From Azospirillum sp. (GTDB lineage Bacteria > Pseudomonadota > Alphaproteobacteria > Azospirillales > Azospirillaceae), in NCBI GenBank assembly GCA_027486405.1, contig JAIXPD010000010.1, positions 62,001 to 126,000 of the forward strand: a DNA stretch of 64,000 nucleotides. Direction: 5' to 3'. This document shows positions 1,470 through 11,407 of this stretch, piece by piece. How positions within the stretch are numbered: the first letter of the stretch is position 1; every line of letters begins with the position of its first letter. Made by a program: the position numbers and the translations under genes. The notes beneath the pieces are model-generated. The model did no database searches and had not been told where the DNA came from. It saw only the letters and a list, made by a program, of their open reading frames with translations.

Positions 1470-1673
1470 AGGTAACAGCGCAACGAGACGAATGCACAAT
1501 GGACAGAAAGCGTCGGGAGTATTTCCGGCGCTTTCTCCTTTTGTGAAATTGCATATGCGAGTATGCAGAAACCGCCAAAGCTGAAAAAGAATCCGCTGCA
1601 CGGCGCTGGAATATCCACAAATCGAAAAATACATGCTCTAATATGTCAACGCGAACTCCGCAGGGGGGCGGAC

Positions 1674-4600
1674 ATGGCGGCGGGCATGGCGGCGGACACC
1701 AGGGCAACAGACGGCATCGGGCATCAGGCAACTCTTGCGGCAACGCGCCCCCTGCGCGGCAAGACGCCTGAGCGCAAGATCCTGACAACCGTGTTCGTTG
1801 ACATCGTCAGTTCGTCCGCCCTGGTCGCCGGGCGGGATCCGGAGGACGCCGACCACATCCTGCTGACCATCCTGAACAGCCTGGTGGAAGCGGTCCCACG
1901 CTACAACGGCATGGTGTCGCAACTTCTGGGGGATGGCTTCATGGCCGTGTTCGGCGCACCGAACGCGTTGGAAGACCACGCGTTGCGGGCCTGTCTGGCC
2001 GCGCAGGACATGGTTCGCTCCACGGTGGAGGCGCTGGACCTGCCCGATTTCCAGGTGCGGATCGGCATCAGTTCCGGCGATGTCATCACCCACGTCATGA
2101 CCAACGGGGTCTGGGCCGATTACCGCGCGGTTGGGGAATGCGTGCATCTGGCCGCCAAGCTGCAACAGCGCGCCGAACCCAACAGCGCGCAGTTGAGCCG
2201 CGACACGCTCGATCTGGTGCCGGTCGGCGTTGCCGCAAGACCGATGGGCAGCCTGACGCTGGCCAAGGGCGCGCAACCCGTGCCGGTGTTCGCCCTGGAG
2301 GGTGCGCGCGCGATTCGCCGCACCGCAACCGACCTGCTGCGCTCCACCAAGGCCCCGTTCCTGGGACGCCGTGACGAGGTGGCAACCATCTTCGCGCTGG
2401 CGGATCGGGCGGAAGCGGGCATCCCCTCCTCCCTGATCCTGCGCGGCGACGCGGGCATCGGCAAATCCCGCTTGGTCGGTGAGTTCCTGCGCGCGCCGCG
2501 CAGCCGGGAATGGACGGTGCTGCAATGGTCGCAAATGCCGATCCGCCGCCTGGGTGATCCCGACGATCTGGAAGCGGTGGCGCAAAGCCTGGCCATTCAG
2601 GCGATTGGCGGGACCGCCAACGCCGTTGCGGAACTGGCCGCCGCCGCCGAACGGCGGGCCGGGGTCCTGGCCGGGGACGCCGTCCGGCAACTGCTGGACA
2701 CCCCGGCGCTCACCCCCCTGTGGGCTGGCCTCGACCCGACGGAACGGTTGAAATGGTCGATTGATGGCTTGGTCGGGGCTGTGCTCGACCTGTCCGCGCC
2801 GCACGCGGTCGGTCAACGACCGATGCTGATTCTGGTGGAGGACGCGCATTGGGCGCGCCCCGTCATGGTCCGCCTGCTCGACGCGCTCCTGGCCGCCCTG
2901 CCCGGCAGCCACAGCCGCCTGCTGCTGATCGCCACCACCCGGCCGCCCGATTTGCGCCTGGAGGACACCGCGCCCCAGGGGTGGAATCCTCCCGGTTCGG
3001 TGCGCTCCCTCGACCTGACGGTTCTGGATCGCCCACAGGTTCAAGAGTTCCTGGATCATTGGCTTGGCACCGATTGGAGTTTGACCACCCTGAAACAGCA
3101 GGTCGCCGACCGCAGCGGGGGCGTGCCGCTCTATTTGGAAGAGATGCTGCGGACCCTGGAGGCGAGGCGAACGATTTGCGGTTCCCCCGGCTCCTATCGT
3201 CTGGCCGACCCCAACAAACCCTTGGACGTGCCGCATTCATTGCAGGGCCTTCTCACCGCTCGCATGGATTTGATGGGCCACGAACCCCGCCGCTTGCTGT
3301 TGAACGCGGCGGTCATCGGCCCGACCTTCGACTTCGGGCTGTTGCGGGCGATGGACGCAACCCCGCGCGCTGATCTGCATGACCAATTGGGCTATCTGGA
3401 ACGCGCCGGTTTCATCACCCGGACCCGCCTGCTGCCCAATCTTGAATACAGCTTCAATCACGCGCTGATGCGGGAAGCGGCCTACATCACCCTGACCATC
3501 AGCGAGCGGAAGGCGCTGCACGGACGGGTTTTGCAGGCGCTGTGCCAGCGCCGCGACCATGATCTGCCCAACCGCTTGGACCTGATGGCCCACCACGCCC
3601 TGAAGGCGGAAGAATGGCCGCTGGCCTATGCCTATGGCCGCAGAGCCGGGCAACACGCGGAAGAACAGTCCAAATTTGAAAGCGCTCGACTGAATTACGA
3701 GGCAAGCACGGAAGCCCTGCGGCGTTTGCCGGAGACACGGCGGAACGTGGCGCGGATGATTCAATTGTCCATTGCGCTGCCCCGTGTTCTGCTGCCATCC
3801 GGCGCAACGGACGTACAGGAGGCTATCAACCGCGCCAAGTCTCTGTCCAACCAGCACGGCGACCGTCGTGGCTACGCCCAAGCGTCCTCCATGTTGGCAT
3901 CCTTTGTTTGGGCGGATGGACGTCTTGATGACGCGATTGAGCTGTGCAACGATGGTTTGAGCGCCTTACCATCCGGCAAAGAGCGGACAACCCGCATTCA
4001 ACTGTCTCTGAAACTTGCCGGAATCCTGGCGGATCACGGATATTTTCGCCAGTCCATCGACACGCTGGATCAGTGTCAACGCTGGTTGGGCGATGACGAT
4101 CAGAATGCCCGTTATGGCCTGAGCGTCTCAGCCTCCGTCATCATTCACAGCCATCGGGCGCGTTGCCTCGCGGAAATGGGGGAATGGACCGGTGCGTTGA
4201 AGCACGCCATCGAAGCCAACGATCTGGCCCAGCATTCCGGACACATATTCTCCCGCATTTTCGCTCACGTTCATCTGGCATGGACGCTGTTGCTGATGAA
4301 TCAGCCCAGCAAAGGCCTTCCTGTGTTCCTGGAGGCGAAAAACCTGTGCGAATTGGCCAAATCGCCCCTTTGGTTGCCGCTGGCCAAGGCGGGAATCGCA
4401 CATTGCATGGTCGCAATGGGCGACCACATCGATGGGCTTCGCCTGTTTGATGAGAGCTACCGCTGTTTTTCGCGACGCGGCAAAAACCCGAACGACCTGC
4501 ACCCCCGCTTGTGCCTTCCGCAGGTGCAGGTGTGGCACGCAAACGCGTTGTTCACCGTGGGCAAGACACAGGAGGCGTTAGCCCTTGCCCGGAAGGCCGA

Positions 4601-4826
4601 AGCCAACGCGTCGGCGTCTGGGCAACTGGCCTTGCAGGCGGACGCTCATTTCCAGATCGCTACGATCCTGAACAGCGCTTGGGATGAAACCAAAACTCTT
4701 ATGGTCACTTCGCTGGATCGGGCCATTGGAATTGCCGAAGCGCTTGACATGACTGTGAGACTGTCGGCTTGCGACCAACTGAAAAAAGCCCTGCGCAAAG
4801 AGCACCAGCTCACCGCACCGCGCTGA
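1674..4826 (+). CDS. Class III cyclase-domain / AAA ATPase / TPR regulator
   Basis: Large cytoplasmic signalling protein of 1050 residues. An N-terminal class III nucleotide cyclase homology domain (about 35-205) is followed by an AAA-type NTPase: Walker A GDAGIGKS near 259-266 and Walker B MLILVEDAHW near 383-392. The rest is a long helical repeat region (TPR-like, 620-1050). This is the architecture of the cyclase-fused MalT/LuxR-like ATPases, without a C-terminal HTH. Both metal-binding aspartates are visible (FVDI, D43; GDG, about 86-88). The usual adenine-contact lysine is Q, and the transition-state Asn and Arg positions read His158 and Lys162, so cyclase activity is uncertain. I chose the ATG at 1674, preceded by an AGGGGGG Shine-Dalgarno; an in-frame extension to 1563 is possible but unlikely. 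No membrane segment seen. Confidence 0.85.
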   Translation: MAAGMAADTRATDGIGHQATLAATRPLRGKTPERKILTTVFVDIVSSSALVAGRDPEDADHILLTILNSLVEAVPRYNGMVSQLLGDGFMAVFGAPNALEDHALRACLAAQDMVRSTVEALDLPDFQVRIGISSGDVITHVMTNGVWADYRAVGECVHLAAKLQQRAEPNSAQLSRDTLDLVPVGVAARPMGSLTLAKGAQPVPVFALEGARAIRRTATDLLRSTKAPFLGRRDEVATIFALADRAEAGIPSSLILRGDAGIGKSRLVGEFLRAPRSREWTVLQWSQMPIRRLGDPDDLEAVAQSLAIQAIGGTANAVAELAAAAERRAGVLAGDAVRQLLDTPALTPLWAGLDPTERLKWSIDGLVGAVLDLSAPHAVGQRPMLILVEDAHWARPVMVRLLDALLAALPGSHSRLLLIATTRPPDLRLEDTAPQGWNPPGSVRSLDLTVLDRPQVQEFLDHWLGTDWSLTTLKQQVADRSGGVPLYLEEMLRTLEARRTICGSPGSYRLADPNKPLDVPHSLQGLLTARMDLMGHEPRRLLLNAAVIGPTFDFGLLRAMDATPRADLHDQLGYLERAGFITRTRLLPNLEYSFNHALMREAAYITLTISERKALHGRVLQALCQRRDHDLPNRLDLMAHHALKAEEWPLAYAYGRRAGQHAEEQSKFESARLNYEASTEALRRLPETRRNVARMIQLSIALPRVLLPSGATDVQEAINRAKSLSNQHGDRRGYAQASSMLASFVWADGRLDDAIELCNDGLSALPSGKERTTRIQLSLKLAGILADHGYFRQSIDTLDQCQRWLGDDDQNARYGLSVSASVIIHSHRARCLAEMGEWTGALKHAIEANDLAQHSGHIFSRIFAHVHLAWTLLLMNQPSKGLPVFLEAKNLCELAKSPLWLPLAKAGIAHCMVAMGDHIDGLRLFDESYRCFSRRGKNPNDLHPRLCLPQVQVWHANALFTVGKTQEALALARKAEANASASGQLALQADAHFQIATILNSAWDETKTLMVTSLDRAIGIAEALDMTVRLSACDQLKKALRKEHQLTAPR

Positions 4827-4858: not shown

Positions 4859-5167
4859 TCAGTGTTGGCCGCGATCATCGGACCGATGGAAATCAAGCGC
4901 AAGATTGCGCAAGGCGCTGGCCAACGACACGTCACTGCCGCGTTCCTGATCGGCCCGCTGACACAGCGCGGTCAGGGTGATTCCCTCGCCACGCGACTTC
5001 AACTCCAGCGTCTCCCAAATCAAGGTTTCAAGCCGCAAGCGGACACGGCGGCCCGACACGCGCATTGACCGCTCTGTGATGGCGGCCCACCCGGCGAGTC
5101 CCTCAACATCAAGCCGGGTGGACGATGCGTCGCGCCGGTCTCTCTCCGTGTCCAGAACATACGCCAT
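4859..5167 (-). CDS. RHH_4-type ribbon-helix-helix DNA-binding protein
   Basis: Small (102 residues) probable DNA-binding protein. Residues about 32-95 match the ribbon-helix-helix domain of the RHH_4 family: the strand SMRVSGRRVRLRLE, then IWETLELKSRGEGITLTALC as the two helices, and an SLASALRNLALDF tail typical of this family. A longer frame reaches 5476, but the ATG at 5167 has a GGGAGG Shine-Dalgarno just upstream and gives the usual family length. It is transcribed divergently from the peptide-YcaO-TfuA genes, across a 327-base gap holding palindromes at 5225-5236 and 5379-5398. That position suggests local or autogenous regulation (inference). A second RHH_4 protein closes the other side of the locus at 8778. 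Confidence 0.8.
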   Translation of the reverse strand: MAYVLDTERDRRDASSTRLDVEGLAGWAAITERSMRVSGRRVRLRLETLIWETLELKSRGEGITLTALCQRADQERGSDVSLASALRNLALDFHRSDDRGQH

Positions 5168-5224
5168 CCCAACCTCCCCAAAACCTGACAATCGATTTCG
5201 CCAGCGTCGCGCGTGATGTGCCGA

Positions 5225-5236
5225 TTCACACGTGAA
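5225..5236. promoter_or_regulatory. Small palindrome in divergent promoter region
   Basis: TTCAC-AC-GTGAA, a perfect 5-base inverted repeat, lies 58 bases upstream of the RHH gene start. Ribbon-helix-helix proteins bind short palindromes or direct repeats, so it could be an operator. Its small size allows chance occurrence. Confidence 0.3.
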
Positions 5237-5378
5237 AGCGATTCTCACTCCACACACCAATATCGCCCCAGCGCCCCGCCGCGTTCGAGGCACTGCTGCC
5301 TGGTCGGGGGGGGGTAAGCGTAAGGCTGCTTTCCCGAGTGTCCACACAACACGCTTATCGATCCGTTTTGACAGCGCA

Positions 5379-5398
5379 TCTGTGAAGAACTTCACAGA
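5379..5398. promoter_or_regulatory. Crp-type binding site (TGTGA-N6-TCACA)
   Basis: TCTGTGAAGAACTTCACAGA is a perfect 9-base inverted repeat around AA and contains the exact Crp consensus TGTGA-N6-TCACA (5381-5396). It is centred 106 bases upstream of the 66-residue peptide gene. A perfect TTGACA lies at 5368-5373, so the palindrome would fall in the spacer and -10 of that promoter (repression). If the promoter is instead near 5413-5421 (AT-rich, GAATAG/TAGAAA) the site sits at an activating distance. The Crp-family gene at 7959 keeps the Arg-Glu pair that reads TGTGA in E. coli CRP. Confidence 0.75.
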
Positions 5399-5494
5399 CG
5401 GGAAAACACTTCGAATAGAAAGTTTTGCCATCACCCGATGGCGTGATCGCCCTTCCTTCAATCGACGACCCTCCACTCAAAAGGAAAGAGAACA

Positions 5495-5695
5495 ATGGCT
5501 TCTGTGCAGATCTCCAGCCGCTCGACCGTTCGTGGTGCCGATGGCCGCCTGTATGCCGTGACCGCCAACGGCGTTATCGAAGTTGGCGAAAGCCAGAACA
5601 GCACCCCGCGCGCCGTCCTGCGGGCTGGTGAACGGGCCAGCTTCGACGCCACGGACCTGGAGTCCGGCCGCATGTACATCACGCCCGGCGCCTGA
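5495..5695 (+). CDS. 66-residue orphan peptide, candidate YcaO/TfuA substrate
   Basis: Short gene with a good Shine-Dalgarno (AAAGGAAAGAG) and normal coding composition. The peptide has no cysteine, no membrane segment and no recognisable family. It is rich in Ser, Thr and small residues, contains GADGRLYAVTANGVIEVGE in its middle and ends in MYITPGA. It starts the gene cluster that continues with YcaO and TfuA after a 141-base gap holding a small GCGGT-TG-ACCGC hairpin. Precursor peptides of YcaO enzymes are usually short genes in this position, so it is the best local candidate for the modified substrate; that is inference from position only. Alternatively it is an independent small protein under the Crp-type site upstream. 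Confidence 0.65.
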   Translation: MASVQISSRSTVRGADGRLYAVTANGVIEVGESQNSTPRAVLRAGERASFDATDLESGRMYITPGA

Positions 5696-5836
5696 ACCAT
5701 CCAATCGCGGTTGACCGCTGTCCAGGCGTCGTTGCGCCCATCAAAATCCGGATGCCCCCTCGACATCCTGTCTTGACGCGCGAAGACGGCCTGGACCGGC
5801 ACCCTCCCCAGCCTCTTCCTCCGACAGCGAGCGGCG

Positions 5837-7108
5837 ATGCCTTTCGATTTTCTTCCCAATTTCGCAGCGACGGCGACGGATGCGGTGAAGGCCCACACGA
5901 TGGGCACGCATCGCATTGTCTCCCCGGAACAGACCCTGGCCCGTGTCACCCCGTTCCTGCCCATCATGGGCATCACGCGGGTGGCGAACGTCACCGGCCT
6001 GGACACGGTCGGCATTCCGGTTGTGATGGTCACGCGTCCCAACTCCCGGTCGATCTCCGTGTCGCAGGGAAAGGGGGTGACTTTGGCCGCCGCCAAGGCG
6101 TCCGGGGTGATGGAATCGATCGAAAGCTATCACGCGGAACGCGTCACGCTTCCCCTGAAATTCGCCAGCTTCGAAGAGCTGCGTTGGACGCACCCGGTGA
6201 TTGACGTCGACCGGCTGCCCCGCCTGTCCACCAGCACCTACAGCCCGCACAGCCCCATCTTGTGGATCGAAGGGACCGATCTGCTGAACGGTGGTCCGAA
6301 ATGGGTTCCGTTCGAAACCGTCCATCTCAACTTCACCATGCCGATGGCCCCGGGGCATGGCTGCTTCGTGGCCAGTTCCAACGGTCTGGCCTCCGGCAAC
6401 CATCTGGTCGAGGCCACCAGCCACGCCATCACCGAATTGATCGAACGCGACGCCACCACCCTGTGGCGGCAGTCCGGTGAGATCCAGCAGCGCGGAACCC
6501 GGATCGCCCTGGACACGATCACCGATCCGGTGTGCCGGTCCCTGATCGACCGTTTCGACGCGGCGGGGGTTGGGGTTGGGGTTTGGGACATCAGCAGCGA
6601 CGTCGGCCTGCCCGCCTTCCTCTGCCGCATCGCCGAACGGGAGGACAGCCCGCAGCACGCCATCCGTCCGGCGTCGGGCATGGGCTGCCACGCGGCCCGG
6701 GGCATCGCCCTGTCGCGCGCCCTGACCGAAGCGGCGCAGAGCCGTTTGACCTTCATCGCCGGGGCGCGGGATGACATGCCGCGCGCCGAATACGCACGCC
6801 ACCTGGATGGTCAGCAACACCGGCGCTGGAAAGACAAAATCCTGTCCGACACGGGCGAACGGTCCTTTGACGATTGCCCAACCCACGAAACCGCCTCCAT
6901 CGACGCGGATCTGAACCACCAGTTGGAACGCCTGCGCGCGGTGGGCATCGACGAGGTGGTTGCGGTGGATTTGACCAAGGCCGAATTCGGCATCCCCGTC
7001 GTCCGCGTCGTGATCCCTGGCTTGGAAAGCCTGGACGAATCCCCGGATTACCTGTTGGGAGAGCGTGGCCAACGCGCATCGACCCGCAACCTGGAGAAGG
7101 CCGCATGA
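5837..7108 (+). CDS. YcaO-domain cyclodehydratase/thioamidation enzyme
   Basis: YcaO enzymes use ATP to activate a peptide-backbone amide, giving azolines or, with a TfuA partner, thioamides. This 423-residue protein shows the family from its start: a GTHR-SPEQTLARV segment, GITRVANVTGLD (about 46-56), VSQGKG (75-80), the ATP/Mg motif SGVMESIESYHAER (89-102) and a second motif HAITELIERDA near 198-208. The C terminus lacks the PxPxP end seen in azole-forming YcaO proteins, consistent with the TfuA-associated type. The start at 5837 has only a weak Shine-Dalgarno; M22 (5900) is the alternative. Its stop overlaps the tfuA start (ATGA), so the two are translationally coupled. Confidence 0.93.
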   Translation: MPFDFLPNFAATATDAVKAHTMGTHRIVSPEQTLARVTPFLPIMGITRVANVTGLDTVGIPVVMVTRPNSRSISVSQGKGVTLAAAKASGVMESIESYHAERVTLPLKFASFEELRWTHPVIDVDRLPRLSTSTYSPHSPILWIEGTDLLNGGPKWVPFETVHLNFTMPMAPGHGCFVASSNGLASGNHLVEATSHAITELIERDATTLWRQSGEIQQRGTRIALDTITDPVCRSLIDRFDAAGVGVGVWDISSDVGLPAFLCRIAEREDSPQHAIRPASGMGCHAARGIALSRALTEAAQSRLTFIAGARDDMPRAEYARHLDGQQHRRWKDKILSDTGERSFDDCPTHETASIDADLNHQLERLRAVGIDEVVAVDLTKAEFGIPVVRVVIPGLESLDESPDYLLGERGQRASTRNLEKAA

Positions 7109-7848
7109 GCAGCATCTGTGTTTTCCTCGGCCCGACCCTGCCGCGCGAGGATGCCGAACGGGAACTGGACGCCACCTTCCTGCCGCCGGTGGCGCAAGGC
7201 GATGTGATCCGGGTCTGCGCCGACAAACCCAAGGCCATCGGCATCATCGACGGGTATTTCGAGAACATCCCGTCGGTCTGGCACAAGGAGATCCTGTTCG
7301 CGATCCAATCCGGGATTCCGGTGTTCGGCGCGTCCAGCATGGGGGCGCTGCGGGCGTCCGAACTTCACCCCTTCGGCATGATCGGGGTGGGGGCCATCTT
7401 CGAAGCCTTCCGCGACGGCCGGTTGGAGGACGACGACGAGGTGGCCGTGGTCCATGGCCCCGCCGAGTTGGGCTATCCCAGCCTGTCGGAGGCGATGGTC
7501 AACATCCGCCGCACGCTGGCGGACGCGGTGGCGGGCGGCGTGTTGAGCGCCAGCACCTGCCTGCGCCTGGAAGCCATCGCCAAGGAATTGCCGTATCGGG
7601 AACGCGGGTACGGGCGAATGCTGCGCCTGGCGGCCGACATCGGCCTGCCCGCCGATGAACTGGCCATGTTCAAGAACTGGCTGCCCATCGGTCGCTTCGA
7701 TCAGAAGCGCGACGACGCCCGTCTGATGCTGCGCACCATGCGCCGTGTCCTGGGACGCGCCGACAGCGCCCCCCAGCCCCGTTTCCACTTCGAACGCACC
7801 ATCCTGTGGGATCGGGCGGTGCGCGACGCCATTCCGCACACGATGTGA
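7105..7848 (+). CDS. TfuA-like protein, YcaO partner
   Basis: 247-residue TfuA-family protein. TfuA proteins are encoded with YcaO enzymes (first seen in trifolitoxin production) and in studied cases supply the sulfur-transfer partner function for peptide thioamidation. Recognisable parts: the N-terminal VFLGPTLPREDA, VFGASSMGALRASEL (about 73-87) and GVGAIFEAFRDGRLEDDDEV, followed by a helical C-terminal half. The start ATG overlaps the ycaO stop by four bases. No peptidase, transporter or dehydrogenase follows in the operon, unlike secreted RiPP clusters, so a product kept in the cell or a protein-modifying role should be considered (inference). Confidence 0.92.
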   Translation: MSSICVFLGPTLPREDAERELDATFLPPVAQGDVIRVCADKPKAIGIIDGYFENIPSVWHKEILFAIQSGIPVFGASSMGALRASELHPFGMIGVGAIFEAFRDGRLEDDDEVAVVHGPAELGYPSLSEAMVNIRRTLADAVAGGVLSASTCLRLEAIAKELPYRERGYGRMLRLAADIGLPADELAMFKNWLPIGRFDQKRDDARLMLRTMRRVLGRADSAPQPRFHFERTILWDRAVRDAIPHTM

Positions 7849-7958
7849 AACCGTCTCAATTTGCACCAATTTGGTTGTTCCAGCCCCTTGCAACACGCCA
7901 TAAAGTTTGACAGCGTTCCGCCTGACGCAGGGGCCGGACACACTGGTTGGAGCGGTTT

Positions 7959-8669
7959 ATGAACACGCCGACAGACGTCGCGTCCATCTTACGGCGCAAC
8001 CGACTGCTCGAAGAATTGGACGCGGCGCAGATGGCCGAACTTCTGACGCTGGGATATGTCAGCCGTTTCGCTCCAAACCAGACGATTTTTGAAAAGGGCG
8101 ATTCCGGGGATTGTTTGTATGCCGTGCTGAAGGGACAGATCGCGATCCGCACCTCGTCCGCCGATGGCAAGACCATGCTGCTGAACATCCTGAACAGCGG
8201 CGACATTCTGGGCGAAATTGGTTTGCTGGACGGCCGGGAACGAACCGCCAGCGCGCTCGCGATCGGCCCGACCGAGCTGTACCGGATCGACCGCGCCGAT
8301 TTCATCCCGTTTCTGGAGCGTCACCCCCGCCTGTGCACCCGCATGATGATCGTGCTGTGTGAGCGATTACGATGGGTGTCCGAGAACATCGAGGACGCGG
8401 TTTTTCACGATGTGCCGCTACGTCTGGCCCGCCGCCTGCTCCATTTGGCCGACCATTACGGGCAAACCACACCGTCAGGGCTGCGAATCGCTCAACCTCT
8501 CTCGCAGGAAGCGTTGGCCAGCATGCTGGGCGTCACGCGGGAAATGGTGAACAAGAGCCTGGGGACGTTGCGCAAGTCCGGCATCATCACCAACGCTAAG
8601 GGCTTCATAGTCATCAATAATCTTCCGCTGTTGAAGGACTTGGCCGGAGACACCGAACGGGTGCCATAA
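7959..8669 (+). CDS. Crp/Fnr-family transcription regulator
   Basis: 236-residue regulator with an N-terminal cyclic-nucleotide-binding beta-barrel (about 12-115) and a C-terminal Crp-type winged helix (about 150-225). The phosphate-binding cassette reads GEIGLLDGRERTAS, keeping the Glu and Arg used for cAMP in E. coli CRP, with Thr for Ser83. The linker helix keeps a Ser at the position of Ser128 but has Val for Thr127. The recognition helix VTREMVNKSL keeps the Arg-Glu that reads TGTGA, with Lys for Arg185. No Fnr cysteines. The ATG at 7959 (GGAG upstream) is preferred over a TTG at 7947. It lies 110 bases after tfuA and is the likely reader of the site at 5379-5398 (inference). Confidence 0.9.
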   Translation: MNTPTDVASILRRNRLLEELDAAQMAELLTLGYVSRFAPNQTIFEKGDSGDCLYAVLKGQIAIRTSSADGKTMLLNILNSGDILGEIGLLDGRERTASALAIGPTELYRIDRADFIPFLERHPRLCTRMMIVLCERLRWVSENIEDAVFHDVPLRLARRLLHLADHYGQTTPSGLRIAQPLSQEALASMLGVTREMVNKSLGTLRKSGIITNAKGFIVINNLPLLKDLAGDTERVP

Positions 8670-8704
8670 CCCATCCGTCACCTGCTTGCAGTTTTGTTCC
8701 CCAA

Positions 8705-8722
8705 AACTCGTTCAATCGAGTT
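8705..8722. promoter_or_regulatory. Operator-like inverted repeat upstream of RHH gene
   Basis: AACTCG-TTCAAT-CGAGTT, a perfect 6-base inverted repeat with a 6-base spacer, directly precedes a TTATAG (-10-like) and lies about 55 bases before the RHH_4 gene at 8778. This layout suits autoregulation by that protein, but no binding data can be read from sequence. Confidence 0.45.
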
Positions 8723-8777
8723 ATAGTCTGAAAGTTAGAGGGGGGCTTGCTGGCGGTCAGGAAGAGGGCGAACGGTC

Positions 8778-9161
8778 ATGTCTGACACAGAGGGCGCGGC
8801 TGCGCGCAAAAATCAGCCCAAGGGCGTGGCGTCTTTGGTTTCCCGGTCGTTGGTCTTGGCGGGCCGAACCATCCAGGTCCGTCTCGAACCTTCCTATTGG
8901 GAGGGGCTGGACGAGATTTGTCGGCGCGAGGATTTGAGCGCCGATGAATTGTGCGCCGACGTTCAGGACAGGATGGAGCAGCAAACACGGCGCGCGGGCG
9001 GCCAAGGCGGTGTGTCGTTGGCAAACGCCCTGCGTGTTTTCGTCGTTGGCTATTACCGACAGGCGGCGACGGAACGGGGACACAGCCGCGCCGGACACGG
9101 CCAAGGCGATCCTTTTGCCAGCACCCCGTTTGATCGGCCATCGACCCGTCACGAAGCCTGA
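8778..9161 (+). CDS. RHH_4-type ribbon-helix-helix DNA-binding protein
   Basis: 127-residue protein whose centre (about 20-92) is an RHH_4 domain: SRSLVLAGRTIQVRLEP as the DNA-contacting strand, SYWEGLDEICRREDLSADEL as the helices and the family-typical SLANALRVFVVGYY end. The last 30 residues are polar and probably disordered. It resembles the protein at 4859-5167 in domain plan (RS(L/M)..GR..(R/V)(L/V)RLE) but differs in sequence, so they are paralogues rather than a recent duplication. Together the two bracket the peptide-YcaO-TfuA-Crp genes. The regulatory target is not known; the inverted repeat at 8705-8722 is a candidate. Confidence 0.8.
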   Translation: MSDTEGAAARKNQPKGVASLVSRSLVLAGRTIQVRLEPSYWEGLDEICRREDLSADELCADVQDRMEQQTRRAGGQGGVSLANALRVFVVGYYRQAATERGHSRAGHGQGDPFASTPFDRPSTRHEA

Positions 9162-10066: not shown

Positions 10067-11407
10067 ATGACCGCATCATCCGTTTCCAAGTCCGCCCCGA
10101 AGGTCGGCATCGTCAGCCTTGGCTGCCCGAAAGCGCTCGTGGATTCCGAGCGCATCCTCACCCGTCTCCGCGCCGAAGGGTACGAGATTTCGCCGTCCTA
10201 CGACGGGGCCGATGTCGTGCTCGTCAACACCTGCGGGTTCCTGGACAGCGCCAAGCAAGAGTCGCTCGACGCGATTGGCGAGGCGATCAAGGAAAACGGC
10301 AAGGTCATCGTCACCGGCTGTCTGGGCGTGGAGCCGGATGTCATCCGCCAGACCCACCCGGACGTGCTCGCCGTCACCGGCCCGCACCAGTATGAACAGG
10401 TGGTCAGCGCCGTGCACGCGGCGTTGCCGCCCAAGCATGACCCCTTCACCGATCTGGTTCCGCCCGAAGGGCTGCGGCTGACGCCACGCCACTACGCCTA
10501 TCTGAAGATCTCCGAAGGCTGCAACAACCGCTGCACCTTCTGCATCATCCCGTCCATCCGTGGCGATCTGGTCAGCCGCCCGATCACGTCGGTTCTGCGC
10601 GAAGCGGAAAAGCTGGCGGTCGCCGGGGTCAAGGAACTGCTGGTGATCTCGCAGGACACCAGCGCCTATGGCATCGACACCAAATTCAAGGAAGAGATGT
10701 GGTACGACCGGACGGTCCGCACCCGTTTCCTTGATCTGTGCACCGAACTGGCCAATCTGGACCTGTGGGTGCGTCTGCACTACGTCTATCCCTACCCCCA
10801 TGTGGATGAGGTCATTCCGCTGATGGCGGAGGGCAAGATCCTGCCCTACCTCGACATTCCGTTCCAACACGCCTCGCCCACCGTCCTCAAGGCGATGCGC
10901 CGCCCGGCCTCGCAGGAAAAGCAGCTCGACCGCATCCGCAAATGGCGGGAGGACTGCCCCCATCTGGCCCTGCGCTCCACCTTCATCACCGGCTTCCCCG
11001 GCGAGACGGAGGAGGATTTCCAATTCATGCTGGATTGGCTGAAGGAAGCCCAACTCGACCGCGTCGGCTGCTTCAAGTATGAGGCGGTGGACGGGGCCAA
11101 GGCGAACGAGCTGCCGGGGGCCGTGCCGGAAGAGGTCAAGCAGGAGCGTTGGGAACGCTTCATGGAAACCCAGAAGGCCATCAGCGCCGAACGGCTTCAG
11201 CAGAAGGTGGGTTGGACGCTGGGCGTGCTGATCGACGAGGTGGACGAGGATGGGGCGATTGGCCGCTCCTACGCCGAAGCACCGGAAATCGACGGCAACG
11301 TCTTCCTGAACGGCGAAACCACGCTGAAACCCGGCGATCTGGTCGATGTCACCATCGAACACGCCGACGAATACGATCTGTGGGGCAGCGTCGAACGGGT
11401 GATCTGA
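10067..11407 (+). CDS. rimO: Ribosomal protein S12 methylthiotransferase RimO
   Basis: Radical-SAM enzyme that methylthiolates the conserved aspartate of ribosomal protein S12, using two 4Fe-4S clusters. At 446 residues it matches E. coli RimO (441). Domains: the N-terminal MTTase with cluster cysteines in [19 protein letters not shown] and VTGCLG; the radical-SAM core with CNNRCTFC (CxxxCxxC); and a C-terminal TRAM domain (about 375-446). The [12 protein letters not shown] start distinguishes it from tRNA-modifying MiaB. The frame is open upstream, but the ATG at 10067 gives the family start; its Shine-Dalgarno is weak. Confidence 0.96.

Follow-up and report, generated by a model that had tools for sequence, protein, structure and literature searches.

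An Azospirillum operon proposed to encode a cGMP/Crp-controlled modified peptide, orthologous to the cyst locus of R. centenum

What does a YcaO-TfuA enzyme pair modify when it is encoded between a small gene of 66 residues and a Crp-type regulator gene, and what does the product do in the cell? This question is raised by a locus in a 64,000-nucleotide stretch of DNA from Azospirillum sp., hereafter the window, in which genes were identified from a listing of open reading frames (ORFs) and by a Pfam scan of the window proteins other than that at 10069-11404. The locus has the order cyclase-AAA-TPR gene, RHH_4 gene, 66-residue gene, ycaO, tfuA, crp-type gene and second RHH_4 gene (Table 1). We propose, with a probability of roughly 0.6, that it is an operon for a ribosomally synthesized and post-translationally modified peptide (RiPP), that it is controlled by cyclic GMP (cGMP) and Crp and orthologous to the cyst locus of R. 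centenum, and that its peptide is probably thioamidated and feeds back on the cyclase. The predicted gene content of the operon is well supported by sequence, while the action of the peptide on the sensor cyclase is put forward as a hypothesis.

The small gene, whose product had no Pfam match at E 0.1, is well supported as encoding a putative precursor with a fixed leader, RGADGRLY, followed by a core at the C-terminus, and this peptide probably undergoes excision and chemical modification. Of 56 loci, 7 had no precursor under a rule combining a start with the motif (L046, L047, L067, L063, L064, L108, and L109), leaving a set of 49; in L067 (G008) the profile matched over positions 7-65 and the start was absent by the same rule. 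The motif RGADGRL occurred in 40 of the 49 precursors, and its relaxed form in all 49, a set that had been selected with that form. The back-translated leader pattern, with CGN arginines, gave a single match in the window's own genome. At the other end, the window peptide carries the 12-residue unit DLESGRMYITPG, and the pattern D-x-x-(A/S)-(G/A/S)-R-x-x-(I/V)-x-(P/S)-(G/N), written after seeing the sequences, was found in 27/27 Azospirillum precursors inspected. The sister genera kept the N-terminal motif and had a wholly different C-terminus, e.g. GADFVNPRFP, GANWFEPPFPPSFP, and GASAEIFASSAEIFSAKM. In several relatives a leader of this kind precedes units repeated in tandem, which are similar to the lone core of Azospirillum: four DHASARVF units in L138, four in L140, nine in L139, twenty AGRWA in L143, five DDSQRHAANFIGT in L226 from another alphaproteobacterial family, and twelve (S/G)RAVM in the alphaproteobacterium L236 (L142 resembles L138 but contains a run of N). 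The leader-type ORF of L236 lies near 10196, about 1.8 kb past tfuA, and no Crp match was found nearby. Some loci of Chloroflexota and Balneolota likewise have the leader motif close to YcaO-TfuA. In the oryzae-like group, the ratio of nonsynonymous to synonymous polymorphism (pN/pS) of the precursor was 0.37, with the leader most constrained. A precursor with leader and core is encoded beside the enzymes, as expected of a YcaO-TfuA RiPP locus.

The enzymes point to the chemistry. The ycaO and tfuA genes are adjacent, with the start of tfuA overlapping the end of ycaO by ATGA, and both families exceeded their Pfam cut-offs. The nearest curated models were those for thioamidation of McrA glycine (TIGR03266 and NF033432), with scores of 250.5 bits against a cut-off of 365 and 211.2 bits against one of 235.2, so that both fell short. 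The nearest solved structures were 6PE3 (MJ1094) for YcaO and 6XP8 for TfuA. The YcaO residues MESIE, NGLASGN, ELIERDA, and RALTEAAQSR, which we take to be the ATP/Mg-binding motifs of the family, align with those of MJ1094 in 6PE3. Since the best models are of McrA thioamidation and the proteins align to the solved MJ1094 YcaO and to a solved TfuA, thioamidation is the likely chemistry, and judging from the enzyme families YcaO and TfuA likely install a backbone thioamide.

This kinship also feeds another explanation, in which the target of the pair is a protein of the cell, comparable to McrA or uL16, the 66-residue protein being a bystander or a regulator. The single copy in nearly every congener would suit such a role as well. 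However, the McrA-type cut-offs were missed, the C-terminal unit is tandemly repeated and hypervariable behind a fixed N-terminal motif, and the precursor, the Crp box and the enzymes stay together across families. The recurrence of tandem units in relatives argues against an unknown protein target, and we consider this explanation very unlikely. The methanogen McrA thioglycine system shares with the window the closest enzyme families and the solved structures, but the window proteins fall below both cut-offs and their substrate is probably a small precursor (PMC5589413). The E. coli-type uL16 YcaO shares the superfamily and the thioamide chemistry, whereas TfuA is not near the uL16 enzymes and is adjacent in the window (PMC13063428); the uL16 model NF040716 gave only 24.1 bits against a cut-off of 700, and tfuA is present beside the ycaO of the window.

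Table 1. Features of the locus in the window, with the basis of each assignment.
Feature	Position	Strand	Basis
Cyclase-AAA(STAND)-TPR sensor, GcyA-like	1563..4826	+	PF00211 E 4.3e-14, PF13191 E 1e-15, TPR_12
Divergent RHH_4 (ribbon-helix-helix) regulator gene	4859..5167	-	PF13467 E 4.3e-12; 102 aa from ATG
Crp/CgrA-type box TGTGAAGAACTTCACA	5381..5396		perfect TGTGA-N6-TCACA, 114 nt upstream of precursor ATG
Putative RiPP precursor peptide gene, 66 aa	5495..5695	+	one copy in 44/45 genus genomes; alignments
Leader motif RGADGRLY, residues 13-20	5531..5554	+	motif counts in 49 precursors
Putative core, residues 54-66 DLESGRMYITPGA	5654..5692	+	12-residue pattern, 27/27 Azospirillum precursors
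YcaO enzyme, 423 aa	5837..7108	+	PF02624 E 8.5e-84; orthologue of R. centenum gcyB
TfuA, 247 aa	7105..7848	+	PF07812 E 1.3e-46; orthologue of R. centenum gcyC
Crp-family regulator, 236 aa	7959..8669	+	PF00027 + PF13545 (HTH_Crp_2); orthologue of R. centenum cgrA
Second RHH_4 regulator gene, 127 aa	8778..9161	+	PF13467 E 7.7e-14

Regulation of the operon by Crp through the box upstream of the precursor is well supported as a prediction. The chance expectation for such a box in the window was 0.09 at up to two mismatches. In the 400 nt upstream of the precursor, 44 of the 49 loci matched 9 or more of the 10 fixed positions, and 39 matched all ten, against a mean of 0.485 of 49 loci and a maximum of 4 in dinucleotide shuffles. 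The five loci below 9/10 comprise two symmetric Azospirillum variants, AGTGA-N6-TCACT, and three loci without a Crp gene. There were four exact GTGAAGNNCTTCAC matches in the window's own genome, of which only the site at the locus lies outside ORFs, and the nearest paralogue of the locus Crp in that genome was only 26% identical. A second palindrome of the CTTCGAATNNGAAG type, downstream of the box, was considered as an operator; it is limited to part of Azospirillum, and an operator is therefore not claimed.

The same box links the locus to cyst formation. In the R. centenum study, CgrA is a CRP homologue that uses cGMP; it binds a TGTGA-N6-TCACA site ahead of RC1_3785-gcyB-gcyC-cgrA, from which RC1_3784 diverges, activates this operon and together with cGMP controls encystment (PMC4681086). 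A feed-forward loop from cGMP through CgrA to the operon was published there, and in the cgrA mutant RC1_3785 shows the largest fall among the operon genes (-8.9 in the table), with gcyB and gcyC down 60- to 80-fold (PMC4681086). The same account describes GcyB and GcyC as guanylyl cyclase subunits, putative or non-catalytic, and places their genes upstream of cGMP; RC1_3784 and RC1_3785 are given as hypothetical proteins, neither of which was disrupted (PMC4681086).

Genome G457 contains, exactly and once, the published 16-base CgrA site of RC1_2000/2001, flanked by RebB-type (R-body) ORFs (one was scanned, PF11747) and a sigma-70 ORF, and the published peak distances of these two genes sum to 819, the exact ATG-to-ATG spacing in G457. 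Its ycaO locus carries the published box TGTGAAGCAGTTCACA. The published distances of RC1_3784 and RC1_3785 add up to 231 (43 + 188), the observed spacing being 232 nt, and only 1 of 56 start pairs came within 1 nt, namely the RHH gene starting at MNAPSKPQ and the precursor starting at MLIRGADGRLY. Measured against the box itself, one of -43 and -188 fits and the other does not, while both fit from a common point of chromatin immunoprecipitation (ChIP); since the single distances misfit the box, they seem to have been taken from the ChIP peak. Because of the exact CgrA site and the start spacings, G457 was taken as R. centenum, and gcyB was accordingly taken as a putative YcaO gene, gcyC as tfuA, RC1_3784 as an RHH_4 gene and RC1_3785 as the precursor gene. 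The published table gives the plus strand for the R-body genes, which lie on the minus strand in G457. By position, the divergent RHH_4 gene of the window is the orthologue of RC1_3784. The two loci share gene order, the box, the divergent small gene, the Crp-type activator and the start spacing within 1 nt; they differ in the core sequence and in the published gene identities, and in R. centenum crp is followed by an ABC exporter gene.

These assignments bear on the published view that GcyB and GcyC are non-catalytic guanylyl cyclase subunits, with the peptide then incidental (PMC4681086). The R. centenum gcyB product matched PF02624 at E 2e-89, the gcyC product was 61% identical to the window TfuA, and no cyclase domain was found in either. 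With gcyB and gcyC being YcaO and TfuA genes by sequence, and with a precursor of leader-core anatomy beside them, we regard the subunit reading as the least probable of all. Both this reading and that of a protein target were rejected because of the leader-core anatomy, the tandem cores and the family identity of YcaO and TfuA. No statement that GcyB and GcyC are YcaO and TfuA was found in searches of open-licence literature, judged mostly from their listings, and the main text of PMC8120280 mentions neither Azospirillum nor Crp nor a cyclase.

The operon is present almost throughout the genus. The YcaO query matched 36/36 congeners versus 0/24 genomes of other families, and matches at E 1e-20 or better occurred in 65/82 genomes of the family. 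Orthologues, at 53% identity or more, were present in 44/45 genomes of the same genus, 11/11 of genus g26 (whose named members include Niveispirillum, Oleisolibacter, and Aerophototrophica, among the best 80 of 353 relatives) and 1/1 each of g280, g281, and g286; in the remaining genera of the family the YcaO match was weaker or none. In the first 30 congeneric loci TfuA and Crp were each found in 30/30 and the small gene in 28/30, and in the other two genomes the small gene sits elsewhere; the grouping thus exceeds what coincidence would give. A peptide profile search found exactly one copy in each of 44/45 genus genomes. A class-wide profile search with the peptide gave matches in 6/385 genomes. 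Besides the window's own genome and a single congener, these were two true matches in sister genera and two inside long ORFs (L089 and L090), which were discounted. Gene order and box are kept in Azospirillum, genus g26 and three further genera of the family. The box, precursor, enzymes and Crp also occur in four Kiloniellales metagenome-assembled genomes (MAGs; L138, L139, L140, and L142) and one other alphaproteobacterial MAG (L143), whose YcaO proteins are 60-62% identical to that of the window and at whose loci no RHH gene was detected.

An earlier note on this DNA had described a compact YcaO-TfuA system with a co-occurring small gene and Crp, and these counts agree with it; the genes it named are all present by ORF listing and Pfam, and Pfam found no transporter, protease or oxidase among the block genes, as it had said. 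Its concern that homologous pairs might have unrelated flanks everywhere holds only outside the family, within which the block is kept together.

Two species, A. canadense and A. rugosum, carry the locus as separate cyclase-RHH-box-peptide and RHH-box-ycaO-tfuA-crp parts, which lie 89 kb apart in one species and on different contigs in the other, with a perfect box before each part. In G421 (L246, G421:C2:884000-902000), the one genus genome without the peptide, a single deletion has removed the RHH, peptide and ycaO genes and joined the cyclase gene to the tfuA end; crp and the second RHH gene are still there. In a YcaO tree of 84 rows, for which closely related Azospirillum loci had been thinned by hand beforehand (17 of 80 named loci were omitted), the 33 rows with a Crp neighbour needed four changes versus 26.3 for shuffled labels. 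All 33 fall within one alphaproteobacterial group of 36 rows, and the well-supported branches still force at least two changes in the Crp-neighbour state.

Upstream of the block, the sensor ORF of 1087 aa matched in 45/45 genus genomes and was truncated in G421. The earlier note had drawn the locus without this conserved gene and had missed the Crp box. The true start of the sensor is probably further in than the ORF start; residues 5-68 were modelled with a predicted local distance difference test (pLDDT) under 50, the pLDDT of the whole AlphaFold model being 81.8. Foldseek matched the model first to the STAND-TPR structure 6mfv and then to class III cyclases, and the protein is modelled as a class III cyclase domain with a STAND-type ATPase and a long TPR superhelix. 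The cyclase gene at the R. centenum locus is presumably gcyA. The nearest NCBIfam model was TIGR03903, the TOMM kinase/cyclase fusion, at 219.1 bits against a cut-off of 705.75; the two share cyclase, AAA and TPR parts, but the Pfam scan found no kinase domain in the window protein. Outside the Crp group of the tree, a sensor match lay within 6.5 kb in 30/51 YcaO rows, a count taken without a background control; one of these proteins is a kinase-AAA-TPR protein by Pfam, and others were judged so by eye only.

These parts suggest a circuit. A CgrA-type Crp with cGMP would bind the box and activate the peptide-ycaO-tfuA-crp operon, YcaO and TfuA would put a backbone thioamide into the core, and a protease encoded elsewhere would cut the core from the leader. 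The TPR part of the cyclase protein may then sense the mature peptide, so that cGMP would rise and close the feed-forward loop through Crp. GcyB and GcyC might thus matter for cGMP as makers of an activating peptide and not as cyclase subunits. If YcaO and TfuA affect cGMP, activation of the sensor cyclase by their product is the simplest route, and the location of the peptide gene beside the cyclase gene in the split genomes fits such activation. The most specific form of this idea, in which the thioamidated core is the ligand of the TPR superhelix of the STAND cyclase, cGMP and CgrA amplify its synthesis and a RiPP loop triggers dormancy in Azospirillum and R. centenum, is possible and is proposed only tentatively.

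The main rival accepts the same cGMP-Crp RiPP operon but treats the peptide as output only, a secreted signal, an antibiotic or a cyst component, without action on the cyclase. An MsbA-like ABC exporter gene stands directly after crp in R. centenum (L096), and a similar one is the second gene after crp in L098 (G436), with lengths of 587 and 622 aa, respectively, which favours this rival; by contrast, no exporter was recognised beside the window block, the neighbours of the other Azospirillum loci not all having been scanned. The core is hypervariable between genera, as in toxins or strain-specific signals, but nearly every species of the genus has one copy of the peptide. The operon lies downstream of CgrA, whereas in the R. 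centenum study gcyB and gcyC are positioned upstream of cGMP and the split genomes keep the peptide beside the cyclase rather than beside ycaO. On balance, we judge output alone to be less likely than feedback on the cyclase. The exporter genes also count against the view of the earlier note that missing export sets the locus apart from secreted RiPP clusters. Its suggestion of a protein target sits poorly with the leader-core anatomy and the tandem cores in relatives, and the locus it took as undescribed has a published R. centenum counterpart under other gene identities; its picture of a compact system with co-occurring genes is what stands.

Several observations weigh against the proposed operon and circuit. 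At three catalytic positions, the residues of canonical class III cyclases are Lys or Glu, Asn, and Arg. In the cyclase-domain alignment, to which 74/125 loci contributed at least 110 residues, the two metal-binding Asp residues are kept, and 45/48 Azospirillum rows (some species twice) have Gln, His, and Lys at those three positions. The sensor may therefore not be a normal cyclase; the domain has either an altered chemistry or no cyclising activity left. In G029, cyclase and peptide lie on different contigs. Since the peptide and YcaO of G421 were lost through one deletion, that genome gives no independent evidence of co-loss. The overall pN/pS of the precursor was 0.90 in the brasilense-like group, so that overall purifying selection is not seen there. 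In addition, YcaO and TfuA go unmentioned in the main text on the cyst transcriptome of A. brasilense.

Among known RiPP systems, the thiovarsolin clusters also have a ycaO-tfuA pair and no specific protease, and their precursors range from non-repeating to five core repeats (PMC6511847). However, the window block lacks their heme-oxygenase-like, ATP-grasp, amidinotransferase, and MFS genes, has another leader and core, and adds Crp and a cyclase (PMC6511847).

The surroundings of the operon vary. A divergent RHH gene lies upstream in most of the Azospirillum and sister-genus loci inspected, and copies of the second RHH_4 gene, 56-81% identical, follow crp in most Azospirillum loci with a contig reaching there. 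In one Azospirillum subgroup (L037-L044), four opposite-strand genes, CoA-transferase-like and dehydrogenase-like by eye, lie downstream of crp, others carrying the genes seen in the window. The window's own genome has a second YcaO-TfuA pair, 40% identical (L054, G000:C45:98000-108560), with no match to Crp, peptide or cyclase in the stretch examined around it, and YcaO copies of about 40% identity are also present in many congeners. A further type of YcaO-TfuA locus occurs in one Azospirillum (L064, G027:C16:114000-131000), where a downstream protein resembles a Ser/Thr kinase-AAA-TPR protein, judged by eye.

The feed-forward loop was already known in R. centenum, and what is new here is the identity of its parts, which suggests that the modified peptide is part of the switch for cyst formation. 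If a modified peptide is the product of gcyB, gcyC, and RC1_3785, an unrecognised RiPP would stand at the centre of a dormancy switch already known to be driven by cGMP, an idea open to immediate testing in genetically tractable organisms. A further gain would be the definition of a precursor family, with an RGADGxLY leader and modular cores, in Pseudomonadota, Chloroflexota, and Balneolota, and a gene-based means of detecting its members. If the core does act as the ligand of the sensor, the kinase- or cyclase-AAA-TPR proteins that accompany YcaO-TfuA in myxobacteria and other organisms may be receptors of the same kind.

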